From Paralichthys olivaceus (Eukaryota; Chordata; Actinopteri; Pleuronectiformes; Paralichthyidae): a stretch of DNA of 64,000 nucleotides. The stretch's first letter is position 1, and every line of letters starts with the position of its first letter. The notes under the pieces are model-generated. The model was not told where the DNA came from. It did no database searches and was given only the letters and a program-made list of their open reading frames with translations. Location of the stretch: the NCBI RefSeq assembly GCF_024713975.1, contig NC_091114.1, forward strand, positions 11,442,001 through 11,506,000, in the 5' to 3' direction. A program made the translations under genes and the position numbers. This document shows positions 10,331 through 57,826 of this stretch, piece after piece.

Positions 10331-13300
10331 GGGGGGGGGGGGGGGGTCTGGCTTTGATTGTGAAGTGTCAGGGTTGTGATTACATTATAAGATTCCTGCT
10401 TGATTGAGCAATCCTTTATCCATAGCTAGAGGTTTGCTCAGGGCCAAATTTGGTCCCAGAGCCCAGTTTTCTGAGCCATGTTACATCATGTTGATGCTCC
10501 ATTAGAATTATAAACTCCACATCCTTCCACCAAGTTTCATGACAATCCGGCCGGTCGTCTTTGTGTAGAATAGAGACAAAAAAACGCCAGTGAAAACATA
10601 ACCTCCAGGTAATTATTAAAGGTAAAATATGGAGGCTGCATGGCTGCACAGGGGCCGGACCTCAGGCGAACCCATGTCAGTCAGACATGAATCCAGCTAT
10701 GACTCAACATTTCTCATGCAGCAAAGAGGGGCTCGTCTTTGACGCCCCTGGTTGCCATTGTCTGCCTTGCCAACAACCATAAATCCCTTTCTATTTCAGA
10801 TCACATGCCAAAGAGGTCAATCACCACACGCTCACTCTGTTCCACTAACTCTCCCACTCCTCGCTCTTGCACACAACAAAGCCCAGGCCCCCTTTCAGTG
10901 GGCGACAGGTGGGACCCTATATTTGGGCTCAGCCACCTGAGTTAGCAGAGTAGGTGTGATTTGTGGATGAAAGTGACGAGTGTGTTGGAGAATCTGCCAA
11001 AGAGCTCAATGGAAAAATATCTGCTGTTCGTTTCTCAGTAGAAGACACAAGCCCAGCCTTCACAGACACACCCCCCTCCCTGCCTTCTCCCTCTGCTGCC
11101 TTCATACGCACATTGAGAGCTAGTGGGGGGGAACTTGACACCCCTCTTGCAAAGCCAGGGGCCCCACACACACAACTGTGTGAGCGCGTGTGTGACTCTG
11201 ACTAAAAGTAGAGAAACTTTAAACCATCAGAACACTGGTCGTAGTGTCCCAACCAGCATAGTTCCATGGTCCATACCAGGGACACACAGAGGTAATATTA
11301 CATTTCCACAAAGTATCACATGAATTCATAGAGAGGGAGCCAAGAATTATACAAGTACAGACTTGGAGAAGGTACAAATAACATCACACCCACAAGCTTG
11401 TCAAATATTTTAAAGTGTTCAGCAAAATGTGTGTTGTCCCCAAACTGCATGTTTTAGTGTTATCTGAAACACACACACACACACACACACAACGTGACTG
11501 CCCTTTATTACTCACCCAAGTGATGAAGCAAAGGCGCCTGTGTAAATACTGTCCCTCCTTGTCATGACCTATGTGTGTGTGTGTTTGTGTGTATATATAT
11601 ATATGTGTGTGTGTATGTGTGTGTGTGTGTGGTCGGTGAGGTTAACCGGTTTAAAATCATGCCACAGTAAATTGAGTGGCGTGACGGACGGCAGGTGCTG
11701 CGCTGTAACGGTCAGTTTCAGCGTGTGACAGGCTGCGACACTTCACTGGGTCATTGGTTTACTGTGAGAAAAATCACAAATTCATGAGTTCAAAAATATT
11801 GTTAACAAACACAAGGTTTTTATGGAATCCTCCACAAACACACACATGTATGTCCAGCCTCTTCTCATGTGACTTGCCATGTGTTGTGACATGCACAAAG
11901 GAAATTATTCAGTTAAATTTGGCATCAAATTTACTGAATCATATCCACCAGCACTTGAAAAAATTCTAATTCATGCTGCATGTGATCTTTTCCCTTTGTG
12001 GTTCTGAGCCTGTTCTGATGGACCTCACTCATTATTGTGTCTATGTGCAGTGCCACTCAGGATCAGGTTCACAGAAGACTCGCTGGCACCATCAGCACAT
12101 TCATTCAAAGGTCAAACCGCCGCCGAGACCCAAAGTGGCACCAATAACTGCCAAGCACCCCGAGAGATGGACGAGGACCAACATTCGGTGCGTGGTCGTT
12201 GGATGTGACTCCAGGTGCCAGTTCAGGACAAGCAACCAGCAGCATGGTACGACAGGAGTCATCTGAGCGAGGCCCTGCTGGGGCTCTCTCTGCAGCTCTG
12301 TTCCCCCAGCGGCACAGACGTATATCTTATCAGCAAAGGGGCGTTTGAAGGGTGAGGGTTATGACATCATCCAGCCTGTTATAAAATCATGGCACAGTGA
12401 AATCAGATTTAAACTCCATCTGTAAACAGGCTGGACTGTATTTAAATAGCATTTGTTTTGGTCTTTTCAAGTCACATTCATATATCCTGCACGTCTATAT
12501 CACACATTCACAGAAAAGCCATCAGGGGCAATTTAGGGCTAAGTCTTGCCCTCATAAACTTTTCCATGTAGACTGGAGGAGCAAGGGATCGAAACACCGA
12601 CGTTCAGGTTAGTGGACGACCCGTTCCACCTGCTTAGACACAGCCACCAAGCATCCCTGACAGTCCTGAAGCGAGACACTGACATTGGCCACTCAAGGGA
12701 CCAAGCTTAAAAAAAGGAAAAAACAGTGCACAATATCATGAAACAACAATCATTGTACTATCATAAAGCTAAGACATGCTGTAGTGATAAGTATTTTACA
12801 TGGCTTTTATATTTCTGTAGTTTTTTCCTTTGAGTGCACAGAAATAAGCACAATCACTGTTTCTAAGAGTCTGACTCTTTCATTAAAGAGAAAATTGGCC
12901 TCATAAACCTCAGTGAGTTCATGTAAGTTCATGATGCAATATTGTACCATTCGTTTTCTTTCTGTAATCTTATGTTGCCTTCAAGTGTAATAGTATAAAG
13001 TAAATTACATATTGTAGTTATTTGTCAAAAATAATTTCCTATTGTTATATTATATTGATTAGATACTATAATAAGAATAGCTGATATGCTTCTGACAAAT
13101 GTATGATACAATAATAAAAACAAATCAACCATCTACACATTAAGCAGCATTTAACAAACTCGATTTATGAGAGTTTCTAATGAGTCATTTAAGCACATAC
13201 AGATACTGATTAGGAAAAATGTATGTGTATCATGCTTTTAAATCTTGTCTAAAAATACTTTTTGAAAACTTTTAGAAATGCTTGCCTTTATAAATACTGC

Positions 13301-13720
13301 TTTCAAGTATTTTTTATTTTTATTTAGTCACTTTTACTGATGTATCTGTACGTGGCAATTGTCCTTTTGGACGACTGCCTTATCTGGTTTTTAATTTCTT
13401 GGGTTGCACTTTGTAACAGTGTTAAGTTTCAAGTTTATCTATGTCATTCCTGCCATATCTGTAAAACATACAGTGGAAAGAAAGTGCGTCTCTCTGGACC
13501 TGTGTGCACAAACAATACAACAAGTGCAATAATCATAAAGTGTAACCAAGTGATAATTGAAAATAATAAAACAAACATAATATTTAAGTTGTTGAGATTC
13601 TCAATTATCTTCATTCATGTCATCAATGAAACATGAGAGTTCTTATATTTCCGACAGTTTGAAAGCAGCAGTGTGTGTTTGGCGGTGTTGCGTTTGAGTC
13701 CATCAGGAGAGCAGGCCGCT
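10331..13720. other. Intergenic region slc2a4-tp53 with microsatellites
   Basis: About 3.3 kb separates the divergent slc2a4 and tp53 genes. It holds a poly-G run (10331-10346), the family A copy at 10395-10600, a CA run (about 11469-11492) and a TG/TA run (about 11571-11632). Its AT-rich right half (12700-13600) has no recognisable gene. A 97-codon frame at 11973-12266 has no family features. Wrap53, which abuts TP53 head to head in human, is not present here. Confidence 0.6.
10395..10600 (-). repeat. Diverged interspersed repeat, family A copy 4 (inverted)
   Basis: Carries the reverse complement of aacttggtggaaggatg plus flanking similarity (catgaaacttggtggaagg read on the minus strand), about 0.5 kb upstream of the slc2a4 start codon. 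It is the fifth fragment of one family within 10 kb. Confidence 0.45.
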
Positions 13721-13725
13721 CTGTG

Positions 13726-13730
13726 ATTGG
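13726..13730 (-). promoter_or_regulatory. CCAAT box (ATTGG) upstream of tp53
   Basis: A single inverted CCAAT motif lies at the left edge of a GC-rich block (13700-14000) that precedes the tp53 coding exons and probably contains the promoter and non-coding exon 1. The start site and first donor cannot be placed by eye. Confidence 0.4.
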
Positions 13731-14840
13731 ACGCTGATAAAGACCCGTCCCTCTTCTTCTTCGTGGGAATCCCCGACGACAGCGTGCTGCGGACGAAGCT
13801 CACAATATTTTGTTTTCTCCAGCTCGACTCCCACCCGCGACTCGTTCCCCCTCGGACGGCAGCAGGGGGGAAGCTCTAAGTAACCGCGTGGTCCCGGTTC
13901 TTCCTCCTCTCCTCCGGTGCAGCGGACACCGGAGAGCCGCCGGTAAAACACCGTGTGTCCGGGGGAAGAAAAGTTTCGGTCCAGGAACGTAATGCTAACG
14001 TAATTAGCCAGGGGGAAGCTAGCTAGCTTAAAAACAGTCGCTAGCTAACACAAAAGAGTCGGTGCGCCGCTTACTCGACGGTCGTTAGCATGTTCGCTTG
14101 TTTCTCCTCATCGTGAAGTTTAACTATTTGCCGCGTGTTGGTGTAAAGTGCCGACGAGGATCAGTGGAGCCTGGTTCATTCAGTGTGTGAGGCCCATTGC
14201 TCGACAGAAAATGGACGACAGCTAGCGTTAGCGTGTTTTTTTTTTCTTTTCGCGTGCATTGTTTTTAGCGCTGCTAGCTTTCCTTTCTAAACTTTGTATT
14301 CCCCGATACATGTGTGTGTAATGTAAGTTTTAATAAGTGTTTAAACTGGTTAAAGTTAGCTAGTTGCCCAGAAAGCAAAGGCCTACTTCCTTTTTGACTT
14401 TGATTTCCTGTGCGGCAGATATGAAGGTCTTAGCAGGTCTGAGTTAATGCGTGTGGCTAAATTTATTAACACATAAACATTACACTTGTTAATCTTCATT
14501 TTCTTTTTGTTGATTTTCCCACTTTGTTCTTAAATTAAAGTCATTTTCTCTTTGCCTTTTGGATATTATGATGGTTATTCTTCACAGTTTCCAGTGATTT
14601 TCATGTACTTGACAATTAATTGATGTAACAGAGAAACTAACATTAATCGACAGCTAATTGTGCTTGATGTCATATGCAACCCGATTACTGGAAATCAGTT
14701 AAATTGGGAATTGGATTGAGGTTGAAGTACAGCTTTACTGTTCTAACACAACTTCTTACTTCCTCATTGTCACTGTAGCACTCCTGCATCTCTGCCTCTC
14801 CGTCATTTCCTCTCTGCTGGTGAAGACAGGAACTAAAAAA

Positions 14841-17800
14841 ATGGAAGAGCAAGGTTTGGAAAATGAGGAGTTGACCCCGAGCCTTCCCCTGAGCCAGATA
14901 TCCTTCCCAGATCTGTGGGCGAATGTGTAAGTCATGTTTTGGTTAGATGTACTGTTGTAGATATACAAAAATGTAAGTTCACTTCAGAAAAGTTAATTAG
15001 TTTGTTTTTGCAGAGTGATGCCGTCCATCTCCAGCATCCCAGGGCCAGTGGATGACATGGACATGTTGGTAAGCATTCATACGCATGCCTCTGTTTGGTA
15101 AAATTAAGAAGGAGCTTTATGTTCTGTAAAAATATTCATATGATTGTCACTTAAAGGGACAGTTTACCGAAACCTAAAATGCCTCCATACTGCTCCTGTG
15201 GTGTTATGCAAGTGTCTGTAAACCCTGACATTCATATTCGACTCAATGGCCTCATTTACACCATGTTTTTAACCTGAATGTCCGCTTCCTGAATTAGCAA
15301 TGCTACCGCATACCCTTGGGCAAATTGTGTGTGCATGCGAGGGGTGGACATTTATTAATGGGTGAATTACATTTTTTTCGTTGAACTGTCCTCTAAATCT
15401 TACCTTGTTTGTTAATGTAGACCGACTGACCCATGCTCATATTTTTGTCCTTTTGCAGCTCATGCAAGATGAGTTAGATTTGAACTGCCTGTTTGAACTG
15501 CCTCCAGAGACGGTAACTAAAGATGGCGTTATTCCCCCAGCCTCCACCGTCCCGGTCACGACCGACTACCCTGGGGAATATGGCTTCCAGCTTCGCTTCC
15601 AGAAGTCTGGCACAGCGAAATCTGTCACCTCCACTGTAAGAAATCACTTGGCTAGAAATGTTGTCTTATTAAACTTGCTGCACGTTATTTCAAAGGATAA
15701 ACATACCAGAATAGTTTGACTATTATCTTTATCACCAAGAACATTCACACTTTCTGCTAATAGTGTGAGATAATTATTCAGAATCTAAATGCTTGATCCT
15801 AAAAGTTTACATCAACAGCACTTGCAGCAGATTATCGTGCAACCAAACTTGGTGAGGAGCTCAGTCGGCAGTTTGAGCTCCGTATCTAAGACAAAGGGAA
15901 TTTCAAAAGCGGCTCAGTGTTAAGGTTCCATTCAGTTTGAACCAAGTTTCTGTCATTCATAGTTTAATGATTACTAACTCTTAACTGTGCTCCTGTCGAG
16001 TATTTTGTTAATAAACTAAATTACATTCATCTTATCGTCTAAAACTAGTATAGTTTTTTAATTTCAAGCATTTTGAATCGAAACGTTTTATAAAACACTT
16101 TCACTGTTCTCTGAAGTTATATTCTTTTTAAAGTTACTCAAAATGTTTTACAGGTTGAAAATCTTTTAGACAAACATTAGTTTTAAAAATCTCATCTTAC
16201 CACAGCGCTGCGTTGAAAATCCATTCTTTGGTATCTCTCGTGGTAGCATTCATGTGGAATCTCATTGTGGTGATTCGCTAAATTTTAAGGTCCAGAATCA
16301 GTCACTGCGTTTGAAGAGCCAATGGCGTTAATGTCTCTATCGTGACTGATGCAACAGCCCGCTATGGTTGGTCAGTTTAGTTGAGGGTTAGGGTGGTCTG
16401 TCCTGAAACTCCCACCCCCTTGACGTGCTCTGGTCTGTGGGTGAGGTGCAGTCTGGTTGTAAAGTATAGCTCTGACATGACGGGACATGTTCCTGGACTG
16501 TCTTCCTCCAGCACTGAAATGGTTAAAAACAGAATGACGCAAGGTAAAAAATTGCATTTTGTGTTTGATAGATCTGGCCTCACCGATCTGGAGAAATCAT
16601 CGTAGTTTTTTTCTTTAAAGTACTTTACCTACTTTTTTTGAGTCTTGAGTCATTTCGAGCAGTCTGCTTGTATTTTCTGAAACAGGTTTCAGACCGGGAC
16701 CTCGTTTTTGAGTCGCCACATTCTGCTCTTCTTTCTCCACAAGTGGAAAGACAATAAGGTGTATGGCTTTCTCGCCGTGTTTCTCTCAGTTTTCGGAGCT
16801 TCTCAACAAGCTGTATTGCCAGCTGGCTAAAACCAGCCCTGTGGAGGTGTTGGTGAGCAAGGAGCCTCCTCAGGGTGCTTTCCTCAGAGCCACAGCGGTC
16901 TACAAGAAGACGGAGCATGTGGCTGATGTTGTCCGTAGATGCCCCCATCACCAGAATGAGGACAGTAAGTAAAATGTTCCTTGTATGTGTGGTGGAAGAG
17001 AATGTGTCTTTGCTAGAAGAATCTGATTAATCTGAGGTGAAGTTTCTTTCTGATTTGGTTTTGCATCTGTGTTTTGTGTTCAGCTGCAGAGCATCGCAGC
17101 CATCTGATCAGACTGGGGGGCAGCCAGAGGGCTCAGTATTTCGAAGATCTACACACAAAGAGGCAGAGTGTGACCGTCCCATACGAACCCCCTCAGGTAT
17201 GGCTTCCTCACTCAGGGGAACATGTCCACTCTACACGATCCTTGTCTTTCTCTAACTGTATGAACCTCAACAAGCTGTGAATATATGTTTTTTTTTTTTT
17301 TCTTCAGCTGGGCTCAGAGATGACGACCATCCTGCTGAGCTTTATGTGCAACAGCTCATGCATGGGCGGCATGAACCGCAGACAGATCCTCACCATCCTG
17401 ACCCTCGAGACTCCTGAGTAAGTCTTGTTTTGTTTTATTCTTTATTTTCAGATAGTAGTATATATTACAAGACATGTGTAATTTCCTCTGCCATCTACAG
17501 ATTTTTTTAAATGTTACGAGCTTTGTACTGTTTTGGGAGAGGAAAAGTTTCCACACAAAAGTTATGGACACATTTTGAGGAACATTGGAAAGAGAAAAAA
17601 GTCTTGTCTTTAATGAGATGTGTTGAGGGTGGGGGAGTGCTCCTGAAACTGAAACATAGAAGTGGCATGGGGGGGGGATGGGCAAATGGCGTGAGTAGAT
17701 ATTGGTTGATGTTTAAACCGTCTCGTCTTACATCTTACGTATTTGATTTGTTTATGCAGCTTAGGAAACCCTTTCTTTCTTTTTTGACCCTCTCATCCGA

Positions 17801-18517
17801 CTGTTCGGTTTCTTTCCAGGGGACTGGTGTTGGGTCGGAGATGCTTCGAGGTGCGTGTCTGTGCATGTCCAGGAAGGGACCGTAAAACCGACGAGGAAAG
17901 CAGCACCAAGACACAAAGCGGCCCCAAACAGACCAAGAAGCGTAGTATGTTCGTGTTGCATTACATTGGACTTCAGTTTCCATTCGTTCTTTCTGGTTCC
18001 TTTCTAACTTCGCTTTTATTTTAGAGACTAACCCAGTTCCCCACACCACTACGATGAAGAAATCAAAGTCTGCCTCCAGCGCAGAGGAAGAGGACAAGGA
18101 GGTCTTTCATCTTCCTGTGAGTAATGATGCAGTGTGGCACAAAGCAGGATTTCTTTACAGAATCTTCTGTGATATGAATCATTTCCCTTTCATTAATGAA
18201 TTCATTTTTATTGCAGATTGTCGGTCGGGGCCGCTACGAAATGTTTAAAAAAATCAACGAGGGTTTGGAGCTTCTGGATAGAGAGAAGTAAGAAATTGCA
18301 TCAAAAAACAAAACTTTGCAATCAATTCCAAATGTCTGTTAAAATAATTAATTTTTTCAGTTTTCTAGCTGAACTATTACAAATGTGTCACATCTTCTTG
18401 TTTTTTTTCCCCCTCTGCACCAGAACCAAGAACAAAGTCTCAGTGAAACAAGAGCTCCCTGTTCCCTCCACTGGAAAGAGACTCCTGCAGAGAGGAGAGC
18501 AGAGCGACAGTGACTGA
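14841..18517 (+). CDS. tp53: Tumour suppressor p53 transcription factor
   Basis: Stress-activated tetrameric nuclear transcription factor. Coding exons: 14841-14926, 15014-15068, 15459-15635, 16790-16964, 17084-17196, 17308-17417, 17820-17944, 18025-18116, 18217-18287, 18424-18517; 1098 nt, 365 aa (human 393; the proline-rich region is short). Order: transactivation domain with the Mdm2-docking pattern FPDLW (residues about 22-26); DNA-binding core from [15 protein letters not shown], with [20 protein letters not shown] and [14 protein letters not shown] keeping the zinc ligands and the residues equivalent to human R175, R248 and R273; nuclear localisation signal KQTKKRK; tetramerisation helix [20 protein letters not shown]-terminal tail with VKQE, a sumoylation-type motif, ending SDSD. 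The start ATG follows an acceptor at 14780, so exon 1 is non-coding. A polyadenylation signal AATAAA lies at 18699-18704. Intron 4 carries a candidate internal promoter. Confidence 0.97.
16473..16492 (+). promoter_or_regulatory. Candidate p53 response element in tp53 intron 4
   Basis: Positions 16483-16492 (ggacatgttc) fit the p53 half-site RRRCWWGYYY at all ten bases. The adjoining ten bases, 16473-16482 (tgacatgacg), keep the CATG core with three mismatches, giving two cores exactly 10 bp apart with no spacer. The position, in the intron between the exons ending AKSVTST and starting FSELLN, corresponds to intron 4 of zebrafish tp53, which from the literature hosts the p53-inducible promoter of the delta113 isoform. 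Confidence 0.55.
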
Positions 18518-18704
18518 GAAGCTCGTTGCCTTGATCATGACGACAAACGCCATCTCTTAATCCTTCACATCGTCAGGTTTTATATCTGGTTATTTACTCG
18601 TCATCTGATACCTAAAATCACCTCCTGCCGCCCTATGCCAGAAAACTTGAGCTGATTACTGTGTTAGCGCTGTACAGTGTTAAGAACATTTACTTATGAA
18701 TAAA

Positions 18705-20300
18705 AGTTGAATTCATTATGAAGAGGAGAGCAGTTGACTCTGTAAACAGACCCTGTCTCACTGCTCTCACTGTAGAGGTCCAGTGAAATGGATTTTGAGG
18801 AAACGGGACATTGGGGTGGGACCTAAAATGGTGGGTGCCTGGATTCAGTCAGTGTTAATTTTTGGGGTGGGATTTTTATTTCAGTTTTAATGACTCCGTT
18901 TTTAAAATGTGTCATTCCTGTTGGCTTTTATAATGCATTCATTTTAATCAGATTTTAATTGGTAAAAAAAAAGAAACCCAAAGAGATCCTTTTTTTTTTT
19001 TTTCGTGTTTCATCAAATATTAATTATGATCAAGTGCGTTTCAAACCTGAAAATCCAAACAAGGTTCATGTCTTTGTTACTTTGTTTACATTTGATGTTT
19101 GGTTTCTCAAATTGAAATTTAGGGAGCACGTTTGCATTACATACTTGTCTCCTGGACCGTGTCTACTTGACATGGATGGGTTTGTAGAAGGGCATGTCTC
19201 TCGATGTCAGTATGTTGTGAATGCAGTTTTTGTTTTTGTTAAGTTTTTGGAAAAGCAGTAAAAAAAAAATAAAAATAAGTATTTACGTTTGAATGGGGGA
19301 AATGAATTAACTGGTTCACTTAGTTAAATTTGTTGCCACTTTTGATATTACAACCAGCAAAATGCTTGTCAAGCAATCCTGCAAACCACTTCTGCTTAAT
19401 TTTCTTCTTCTGTTGTTCTGTAGTCAACGACCTGGACCAAACAACACGGGTATGTTCCGTGCATGCAAACAAAGACATTTAAAAAACAGACAGGAGCAAA
19501 CTTAACGCTACATTAATGCACAGCTATGCCGTTTTTATTTTTATATCTGTTCAAATCAACACTGTTTGTCTGATGAGGGGCTGGCTGGATCACCCCCCCG
19601 AAAACCTGATCACAAGTTTTTAGTACCTGTGAGTTTTCATACAACAAAATTACACCTTGGAGAAAATGAGAGGATTTGCACACATGCAATTTTCTTTTGG
19701 ATACTTGGACAACAATCACACTTAGGTACATTATGACATGTTTCTTTTCATGGGACCTTTAAAATAAAAATAAAAATTCAGGATATTTGTTACTTGTTTG
19801 CTTCCATCCACAAGTTTAATCAGCACTTGAGTTCAACCAATCACTGTCTTTTAATAAAACCACTCTAATTTTACACTGCCATGAAATATACGTAAGGCAT
19901 TTCCTTTTTTTAATTGTATCTGTTTCTTTTATAGATTATTTTGGGAGCGTAGTTTTATATAAGAGGTTTATCTTTCTACTGTTTATTTTTCATGTTCTTT
20001 TTGTACTAATTTTCATTTTGTTAGTCAAAGCTTTAAGCCAAAAATAAATGCTTAACGTCACAAAGTTCTCCTGTATTTTTTTATTTGTACTGTTCTTTCT
20101 GTCACTGGTGTTTTTTGAATATTGGTGTTTTGCATTTCTGGAAGTTCAATTCAAAACCACTCGTGTTTCACAGCGTTATCTGAACAGAGCTGTGTGTTTT
20201 TTATTCAAATGTCTTGTTTGAAAACCTGTTGACCGTCTCTGTGGGGATCAGATGTCTGTCTGTTTATATGACCTCATATTGAGAGTTTATTTCCTTCCCT
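18705..20300. other. Intergenic, tp53 3' flank
   Basis: AT-rich stretch after the tp53 polyadenylation signal. Further plus-strand AATAAA strings (near 19267, 19762 and 20042) leave open a longer tp53 3' UTR. Reading frames here (for example 18959-19261) are low-complexity and show no domain; I see no gene. Confidence 0.5.
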
Positions 20301-20494
20301 GTTCAGAGAGTCAGAGGATTCATCTGTTGCTTGGGTGAGTAGCTGGACGTCAACTCTTCCAGTTTCAAATTAATTTATAAGGTTTATGGACTGCTTTGAA
20401 TTATATGTGGTTCCTACTGTTTGTATGTTACAGTACTGACGTTTTCCAGAATCCTCTGTAGGACAACATGACAAAGTTTTCTCTCCAGGATAAA

Positions 20495-23400
20495 ATGTGT
20501 ATTTTAATATCTGGGGGTGAGTGTTGTATTAATGTCTTTTCTCATTACACTCTGTAGGCTCAGTGTTAAGTGCTGAAAATGATTGTCTGTTTATATGCTT
20601 TATATTCATACGTCCATTGAAAATTATGAAAAATTCATTTTGCACTTGTTTGGATGCCAAGGTTATGTATTCAAATGGGATTTTGTCCATCAGTGTAAAA
20701 TCTATATATTTTTTCAGCCACGTGAATCTGAGACATCCTTGGTTTTGCGAAGCCAGTGGTAAATGTAATGATTTATCTGAAGTTACCAATAAATCAACTT
20801 ATCATATTTATAGTGGGTTGATTTTCTGCCCATCTATTTGACACAGCACCAGAAGAGATTCAGAGTTGAGTGCTAAGCAGTAATTGCAAAACACTTTGAC
20901 AGACCAGAAGCAACTGTTAATTAAATGAAACTTGTTATAGTGAGTTCATCCTCGAGACCTTTGTCTCAAAATCAAGACAGAGTAATATTCATAAGGATCT
21001 TGGCAGCCTGGTTTTGTATCATGTTTTTGTCATTTAAACCATATCATTTGAATGAATAGAGAATATTCTGACCTGTTTACATATTGTGCAGAAATGTGTT
21101 GCAGCTATAGATACTATATCAAGAATATATAACTAGGTTCTGCTTGTGTGTTAATTGTAGAAATGTGTTCAGATGTTAATGCATTGTAGAAAACATGATT
21201 TGCTGATTATGGAACTCGAGAACATGAACAGATTAAACTTTGTTGTGCGTGTTTGGAGTCTTGACTTCATCTCCACTGTTTGTACGCTTCTGCGCAGCAC
21301 TGATGTTGATGATGTGCAGCGAGGCCCAGCAGGAGTTCTTCCCCCAGCTCAGAAATCTGACCTGGGACGAGGCCCGGAATCACTGCCAGGTACAGAATGA
21401 ACCTCAGCTTCAGGGAAGAGGCTGAAACGTGAGGTCCGAGTGTGAAAATACTGGAAACTCAAATTAATGAGCCATCCTGAAGCTGACGAGACGTTTCAAT
21501 TTGAGGAGTCAGGTCCAGGAATCATTAATGTCCAATACTTTGTGCCACTGTATAAGGGACTTCTTACCTTTTGGCTGAGATAAAGGAAATTAGGGGTTGC
21601 CCACTCTTCGGGATTGATCCACGAATGTCTGTCTGTGAGCAAATTGAGCATTTGATTGAACCTTGATAACATGCTGGATCACACAGATATCCATAGAAAC
21701 CAGGAGACTGCAGTTGTAGGAAAAGATATCAACTCTAGAACCTTGAAACGTCCGAGGGATATTCACCATCTTGTCCTATTTTTGAAATAAGCTCAGTTCT
21801 GTAAAGTAGAAATTAAATATTTTCATGTCTCATCAGGTCTGTTTCAAAGAGCTGGTGACGCCGACCCCCGGCAACATCCAGATCATTGCCAAGAACCTAA
21901 CCTCTGACTCCTGGATCGGCCTCCGCAAGTATTTACATCCCTCCAGTCTGCCGTGGAGCCGCTGGGCCAACGGGGACCCCCTCACCTTCCAGAACTGGTA
22001 CCCTGGTTGGCCTGTGTTGAAATCCCACTTCCCACAAACGAACTGCTCCTGCTCGGAGGGGCAGACCCCAGAACTCTTTGAATCCACCACCGAGAGCATA
22101 ACAAACTTCAGTGACCTGACAACCCTCGAGTATATGAGCTCATCGATGATGTTTCCCAACTTTACAGAGACTGAAGAAGACTCGTGTGTGGTCATGCTCA
22201 GATTTGGGCCTTGGGTTGAAAAGAGCTGCTCCGAGCTTCTGCCTTTTATTTGTTATGATGGTAAGACTCATTTAAAAGCTCCCCACATAAATACTACACT
22301 ACAACACATGAGTATGTTGTGATAAACAGTACTTTACTATCTCTAAAGAACACAACTTATTGGATTTATCATCATCTCATTATTCTTGACATGTATATTT
22401 CTTGAATTTTTAAAGGTAATTCCTCCAGTTTCATACGGCATACTACTACTATCTTTTTTTCTGTACAAGTACATTGATTTTTTAAAATTTTAAATTAATG
22501 TATCCCTCTATGATTTTCTAGATCGTCTCTCTGGCCGAGCCAACGTGACTGACGTGACAACCAGCTCCGCCACTCTCACTTGGCTGCCTGTGCCAGGTGG
22601 CATCAGCCATTACCGCGTGGAGGTCAGAGGTGACGTCCAACTGACAGAAATCCACAATCCGACTTCCGACCTGACCTCCAACCTTTCCAGCCTGACAGCG
22701 GGCACCCGCTACTCCATCCAGGTGTTCCCTGTTAAATGTGAGCGGGACCTGAACCCACAAGTTGCCACCTTCTACACCAGTGAGTCACATTTGACAGTGT
22801 CATTAAGATCCTCTGTACTTTATTTGATTTCTTTTCCATTTAAGGGAAAACAATATCTGAGATTTTGAGAATAAACTTGTAATATTATGAGTTAAGTCTT
22901 AGTTCTAGGCTACGTGTCATCTTACAGGGTTAATACTTTCAAAAAGTATCAGGTAAAGATTGTGCAAGAAACTGAGAAAGAATCACACAGACTTGGAGAA
23001 AATGTCTGTAAGTGGTAATCTGCCAGATATTCAATGGGATTGAGTAGATCTTTAAAAAAACAATGAGACTGATAAACCAGAGGGAGTGAAACTCTGGTTC
23101 TAATTTATCTTCTTTATTCTCATAATATTATGACATTATTTTCAAAACTGTTGTTTCTTCATATGAACCCAATTCTGCATCATCTCATCTCAAACCTCAT
23201 CTTTTTTGCAGAACCTGACAAAGTCCAAAACCTCACTGTGGCCATGGTGACAGAAACATCAGTGTTTCTGAGCTGGAACAAACCGTCTGGACACGTGGAT
23301 TTCTACCTCGTGGCGGTCCACGGTGCTAACTCTTCGACTGACACAGAGAGCTCAGAGGTCGGCGATTTGATCCCTGGAAGCAGTTACACGTTCACCGTCC

Positions 23401-47660: not shown

Positions 47661-57826
<10,166 letters not shown>

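Follow-up and report, generated by a model that had tools for sequence, protein, structure and literature searches.

A candidate p53-responsive promoter and a candidate in-frame intronic start codon in intron 4 of the Paralichthys olivaceus tp53 gene

The tp53 locus

The plus strand of the window (the whole stretch of DNA that was analysed, 64,000 nucleotides) carries a complete teleost tp53 gene. The coding region spans positions 14841-18517 and consists of ten coding exons, which are numbered 2-11 here and encode a protein of 365 residues (Table 1). The introns between the coding exons all have GT-AG boundaries (9/9), and the reading frame is open throughout. Pfam analysis of the full-length product reports P53 (E 3e-63) and P53_tetramer (E 7.7e-14), while P53_TAD scores 19.2 bits, slightly below the cut-off of 20. 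Intron 4 directly precedes the exon that starts with the (Y/F)S..LNK segment, as seen from the gene model and the human alignment, the intron that serves as an internal promoter in human and zebrafish.

The gene is flanked by a sugar-transporter domain to the left and by RNA polymerase II large-subunit domains to the right (Pfam; six of the nine reading frames were matched). By comparison with human synteny, these neighbours are consistent with a tp53 locus. Downstream of tp53, a receptor-like gene is represented at 21810-22868 by C-type lectin and fibronectin III exons. A long tandem array of 21-nt units that shows higher-order periods (47701-48726) lies inside a minus-strand open frame (47661-48899); this frame reads the heptads of RNA polymerase II (YSPTSPS), so the array is a coding repeat. 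A further tandem repeat, with a 64-bp unit present in 2.5 copies with 94% matches (53770-53927), is flanked by frames with matches to RNA polymerase II large-subunit domains. ARAGORN detected no tRNA genes in the window, and Rfam gave 0 matches at the gathering threshold in 13000-21000.

Table 1. Positions of the tp53 exons and of the features of intron 4 within the window.
Feature	Position	Strand	Description
tp53 exon 2, coding part	14841-14926	+	GT-AG gene model
tp53 exon 3	15014-15068	+	GT-AG gene model
tp53 exon 4	15459-15635	+	GT-AG gene model
tp53 intron 4	15636-16789	+	1154 bp, 1.8% of the window; exon-boundary model
G+C-rich block around the p53 site	16300-16510	.	G+C 0.517, against 0.336 in the preceding 664 bp of the intron
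Candidate p53 response element	16473-16492	.	TGACATGACG + GGACATGTTC, spacer 0, 17/20; sequence level
Possible upstream ORF	16519-16605	+	28 codons plus stop, with another ATG at 16534; not in the exon-5 frame
Donor-like site AAG|GTAAAA	16544-16549	+	Score 3.45, approximate matrix
Weaker donor-like site AAG|GTGTAT	16759-16764	+	Score 2.0; overlaps ATG 16763
Candidate start codon and nine intron-coded codons	16763-16789	+	MAFSPCFSQ, continuous with exon 5
tp53 exon 5	16790-16964	+	GT-AG gene model
tp53 exon 6	17084-17196	+	GT-AG gene model
tp53 exon 7	17308-17417	+	GT-AG gene model
tp53 exon 8	17820-17944	+	
tp53 exon 9	18025-18116	+	
tp53 exon 10	18217-18287	+	
tp53 exon 11, coding part	18424-18517	+	

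A candidate p53 response element

A p53-like site is located in intron 4 and ends 298 bp upstream of exon 5. The downstream half-site (16483-16492, GGACATGTTC) matches RRRCWWGYYY perfectly (10/10) and directly adjoins a weaker half-site (16473-16482, TGACATGACG), which matches at 7/10 positions, with mismatches at positions 1, 8 and 10, and has a CATG core. A perfect half-site abutting a weaker CATG one had been noted in the preliminary description, and both the sequence and the coordinates are as given there. In the consulted part of PMC5007497, RCWWGY is described as the most critical part of the half-site motif; one mismatch of the weak half-site lies inside it.

Whether the site exceeds chance depends on the measure, the weighted score speaking for it and the plain mismatch count against it. 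With the weighted matrix, which is approximate and CATG-weighted, 16473-16492 is the top spacer-0 p53-like 20-mer of the 64-kb window; it keeps first place when spacers of up to 3 are allowed and drops to second at up to 13. Among 3000 dinucleotide shuffles of intron 4, one attains its score at spacer 0 and 0.57% do so with spacers of 0-13; of 60 shuffled versions of the whole window, two attain it. A flattened form of the matrix places the site first for spacers up to 3 and up to 13 alike; an equal-weight IUPAC matrix places it second for spacer 0 and outside the top 30 once spacers are allowed. Plain counting over the window gives no excess, either of sites with at most three mismatches (11 observed, 20.3 expected) or of CATG-form sites (3 observed, 2.46 expected). 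A perfect half-site is present in 37% of the 3000 intron shuffles and a perfect CATG half-site in 8.3%. With at most three mismatches allowed, 46% of them contain a site at spacers 0-13 and 4.3% contain one at spacer 0. The double-CATG form appears in 0 of the 3000, by a criterion that was chosen after the site had been seen.

The four best p53-like sites of the 64 kb under the CATG-weighted matrix with spacers 0-13 (15059-15090, 16473-16492, 17218-17247 and 17851-17870) all fall in the tp53 gene body, the one at 17851 being exon-8 coding sequence. At least three top sites in the gene body were seen in 0 of 300 local shuffles with this matrix (mean 0.24). With the same spacers, the number of top-4 sites in tp53 is two for the flattened matrix and one for the equal-weight matrix, so the clustering hinges on the choice of matrix and is not robust.

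The site lies within a block of raised G+C content (Table 1), of which no second copy was found within the window. The CpG observed/expected ratio of the block is 0.43, so it is not a CpG island; the block is a candidate promoter or regulatory core.

The candidate intronic start codon and its leader

ATG 16763-16765 is in the frame of exon 5, and this frame is open upstream as far as 16712. The preliminary description had claimed that nine codons read from this ATG straight into exon 5 and that its context is weak at -3; both points are borne out, the context being GGTGTATGG, with T at -3 and G at +4. The ATG by itself is not beyond chance, to which the first reading gave too little weight. 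Shuffling with the real acceptor end kept yields an in-frame ATG ahead of any stop in 30% of cases, and 3 of the 9 tp53 introns, intron 4 counted, have an in-frame upstream ATG, which makes ATG 16763 alone ordinary. The other two introns with such codons are those before 18217 (ATG 18196; region 18178-18216) and before 18424 (ATGs 18332 and 18383; region 18200-18423).

The interest of the codon lies in the protein, where M49 is followed by no further Met until M207. Full-length Met residues are at 1, 31, 44, 46, 49 and 207, and exon 5 has no in-frame Met codon. Human Met133 and Met160 align with L114 and T141 of Paralichthys olivaceus p53, and zebrafish Met113 corresponds to V126, the zebrafish context VQMVVD having been taken from a primer in the consulted part of PMC2958959 and reverse-complemented by hand. 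ATG 16763 is thus the only in-frame AUG that would give a largely intact DNA-binding domain; for a transcript that begins within the final 300 bp of intron 4, it is the sole open in-frame AUG before Met207. The base at -3 need not be fatal, because the human Delta133 AUG is reported to be preferred although its context is far from Kozak's (PMC8423303, in the part consulted).

No ATG in any frame occurs within 16537-16762, the 226 bp before the candidate start, so 16763 is the first AUG for any transcript starting within that interval. This depletion has a P of about 0.10, which is weak and carries little weight. The possible upstream ORF (Table 1) comes into play only when a transcript begins before 16535; it would be present with all 28 codons in transcripts beginning before 16519 and would grow to 42 codons in those beginning before 16477.

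A scan of 16490-16786 found two donor-like sites scoring above 0. The stronger, at 16544, outscores 8 of the 9 real tp53 donors, which range from -0.32 to 4.65 on the same approximate matrix; its +5 base is A, whereas G occupies that position in all nine real donors. Splicing from 16544 or 16759 to 16790 would remove ATG 16763, and no in-frame start results after splicing at either site from any ATG after 16475. A leader from 16475 spliced at 16544 has only ORFs of 16-35 codons, none of which joins the p53 frame. Splicing matters here because the first intron of zebrafish Delta113p53 is spliced while the human P2 leader is kept, and the first reading overlooked it as a rival.

The predicted short protein

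The product predicted from ATG 16763 has 268 residues, the nine coded by the intron followed by residues 107-365. Pfam reports P53 at 194.3 bits, matched from position 27 of the profile, and P53_tetramer at 52.1 bits. The product therefore lacks positions 1-26 of the DNA-binding domain profile and retains the tetramerisation motif; P53_TAD is not detected in it, in agreement with the earlier claim of an N-terminally truncated form without transactivation segments.

Comparison with known p53 isoforms

In the consulted part of PMC4333405, intron 4 of both zebrafish and human is reported to hold a promoter that depends on full-length p53. Human P2 is described as occupying the final 250 bp of intron 4, with an mRNA that keeps the intron end unspliced into exon 5 (PMC8423303, in part); the candidate site here, ending 298 bp before exon 5, lies just outside this interval. 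In the part of PMC7946636 consulted, mouse is said to be without P2 activity.

The isoforms that start in exon 5 resemble the arrangement in promoter and differ in start codon. Human Delta133p53 and Delta160p53 come from P2, at the 3' end of intron 4, with an unspliced leader like the one proposed here (PMC8423303, in part), but start at Met133 and Met160 in exon 5, where Paralichthys olivaceus has L114 and T141. Pig Delta152p53, also from P2, shares the intron-4 promoter (a candidate here) and a gene without a Met133 equivalent; its start is the counterpart of human Met160, a position held by T141 here (PMC7946636, in part). Zebrafish Delta113p53 shares the p53-dependent intron-4 promoter, again a candidate here, and the loss of the transactivation domain, but its start is an exon-5 Met in place of V126 and, within intron 4, its mRNA has a first intron of its own, about 1 kb long, that is spliced out (PMC4333405, in part). 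The arrangement had been described earlier as that of Delta113p53; this parallel fails, as the exon-5 start Met is absent, and zebrafish TA5p53 is the closer match.

The zebrafish TA2-5p53 isoforms are described as products of an intron-4 promoter with AUGs in intron-4-derived sequence and without the first 93 residues; camptothecin induces them, and they counteract p53-driven apoptosis (PMC4333405, in part). In the same excerpt, TA5p53 comes from a transcript with 32 extra bp and has nine extra residues. The predicted Paralichthys olivaceus form shares with it the intron-4 promoter (as a candidate), the nine extra N-terminal residues and the exon-5 boundary at which the protein resumes, although 106 residues are missing here against 93 in TA5p53. 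The AUG of TA5p53 belongs to a first exon that is alternatively spliced, and it exists only in alleles carrying a CATT deletion, whereas here the codons from the AUG abut exon 5 and require no splicing. A short intron-4-coded N-terminus in frame with exon 5 is thus present (MAFSPCFSQ), and N-terminal codons spliced from a first exon inside intron 4 are absent, as judged from the two donor-like sites in 16490-16786. The nine intron-coded residues had been put forward as a departure from the known arrangement; this is so relative to Delta113p53 and not relative to TA5p53, which by the excerpt also gains nine, so intron-coded residues are not new in themselves. A TA5p53-like function would, from the sequence, be a better claim than membership of the Delta113/Delta133 class, which fails by the start codon.

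Starts outside the full-length reading frame are also described for zebrafish DeltaNp53, whose intron-2 AUG was shown to work by reporter and which involves intron-2 retention (PMC2958959, in part), and for Drosophila DeltaNp53, which starts in a cryptic exon (PMC7698932, in part). In both, as in the form predicted here, the start Met and first residues are coded outside that frame; they use intron-2 retention or a cryptic exon, in contrast to the intron-4 codons considered here. Intron 2 of the present gene (14927-15013) has no in-frame ATG of the kind zebrafish DeltaNp53 uses, the exon-3 frame being open for only 5 codons upstream. In the paralogous genes, the P2 promoters of DeltaNp63 and DeltaNp73 are internal promoters that give a unique short N-terminus. 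The TA2-5p53, DeltaNp53 and mouse precedents indicate that intron-coded p53 starts are known and that P2 is not universal. In the literature surveyed, mostly titles and the beginnings of abstracts, no intron-4 p53 isoform was found in fish other than zebrafish, and no precedent was met for a contiguous, splice-independent intronic start in a p53 gene without exonic Mets.

A possible p53-driven isoform and the alternatives

The arrangement may be explained by a P2-type internal promoter in intron 4. Full-length p53 would bind 16473-16492 and, after stress, induce transcription from within the final ~300 bp of the intron, the transcript continuing unspliced into exon 5. Ribosomes would start at AUG 16763, and the resulting 268-residue protein, lacking the transactivation region, would attenuate apoptosis driven by full-length p53 in a negative feedback, as zebrafish TA5p53 and Delta113p53 do. 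We put forward the full chain, from promoter through TA5p53-like isoform to feedback function, tentatively, as a possibility that falls somewhat short of being probable. The site, the reading frame, the absence of exonic start Mets and the domain content are observed; p53 binding, the transcription start, the lack of splicing, translation and the feedback function we infer.

The P2-type reading is favoured because the top weighted spacer-0 site of the 64 kb, a 17/20 match to the response element, falls in an intron that makes up so little of the window, and because it sits in a local G+C rise near the human P2 interval. The lack of any other in-frame AUG before Met207 that would spare most of the DNA-binding domain, and the zebrafish and Drosophila precedents for starts of this kind, also count in its favour. 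The position, the p53 site and the reading frame fit the p53-driven intron-4 promoter claimed earlier; an in-frame ATG is expected by chance at about 30%. The reading is further weakened by the T at -3, the donor-like sites at 16544 and 16759, the mismatch in RCWWGY, the lack of excess in plain counts and the reported lack of P2 in mouse. It is also weakened by a comparison of intron 4 with the zebrafish Delta113 5' primers, which gave no significant similarity (the scores are reached by 96% and 35% of shuffles).

Chance could have produced both a p53-like sequence and an in-frame ATG, each without function. The ordinary frequency of such ATGs, the many intron shuffles with perfect half-sites or with sites of at most three mismatches, and the lack of excess of 17/20 sites across the window speak for this account; against it stand the weighted score, reached once in 3000 intron shuffles, the double-CATG form seen in none of them (with the caveat on that criterion given above), and the match in location to a known promoter intron. 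On balance we consider it somewhat unlikely. A real response element could also act as an intragenic enhancer, for example by raising full-length tp53, with no transcript start in intron 4. According to the consulted part of PMC5007497, p53 elements may lie anywhere in a target locus, and the tp53 gene body contains all four top-scoring sites of the window when one particular weighting is used. Against this, that clustering changes with the matrix, and intron 4 of human and zebrafish is reported as a promoter; we consider the enhancer account very unlikely.

The internal promoter could, alternatively, be real and p53-driven while its transcript is spliced, for example from 16544 to exon 5, so that ATG 16763 is removed. 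The mRNA would then give a protein from M207, with most of the DNA-binding domain missing, or no stable protein. The spliced first intron of zebrafish Delta113p53, the score of 16544 relative to the real donors and the short ORFs of the spliced leader agree with this outcome, whereas the A at +5, the human P2 mRNA, unspliced at this place, and a product that would not resemble the Delta113 protein argue against it; we regard it as distinctly unlikely.

If the P2-type reading with a start at AUG 16763 is correct, the same ~27 bases would serve as the pyrimidine-rich acceptor of the full-length mRNA and as N-terminal code of the stress-induced mRNA. It is doubtful, though conceivable, that fishes without the known exon-5 start Mets keep a self-restraining p53 isoform through a start codon moved into the 3' end of intron 4. 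Were this true, the design of the p53/Delta-p53 feedback would be conserved even as its start codon changes from one lineage to another, and the feedback may have an earlier origin and a broader distribution than assumed; isoform searches that rely on exonic Mets would miss an intron-coded start.

Other features of intron 4

A bacterial promoter scan of intron 4, a model that is not informative for fish, found 2 promoters against 2.5 expected. The intron contains one direct and one inverted pair of 24-nt repeats, 79% alike.
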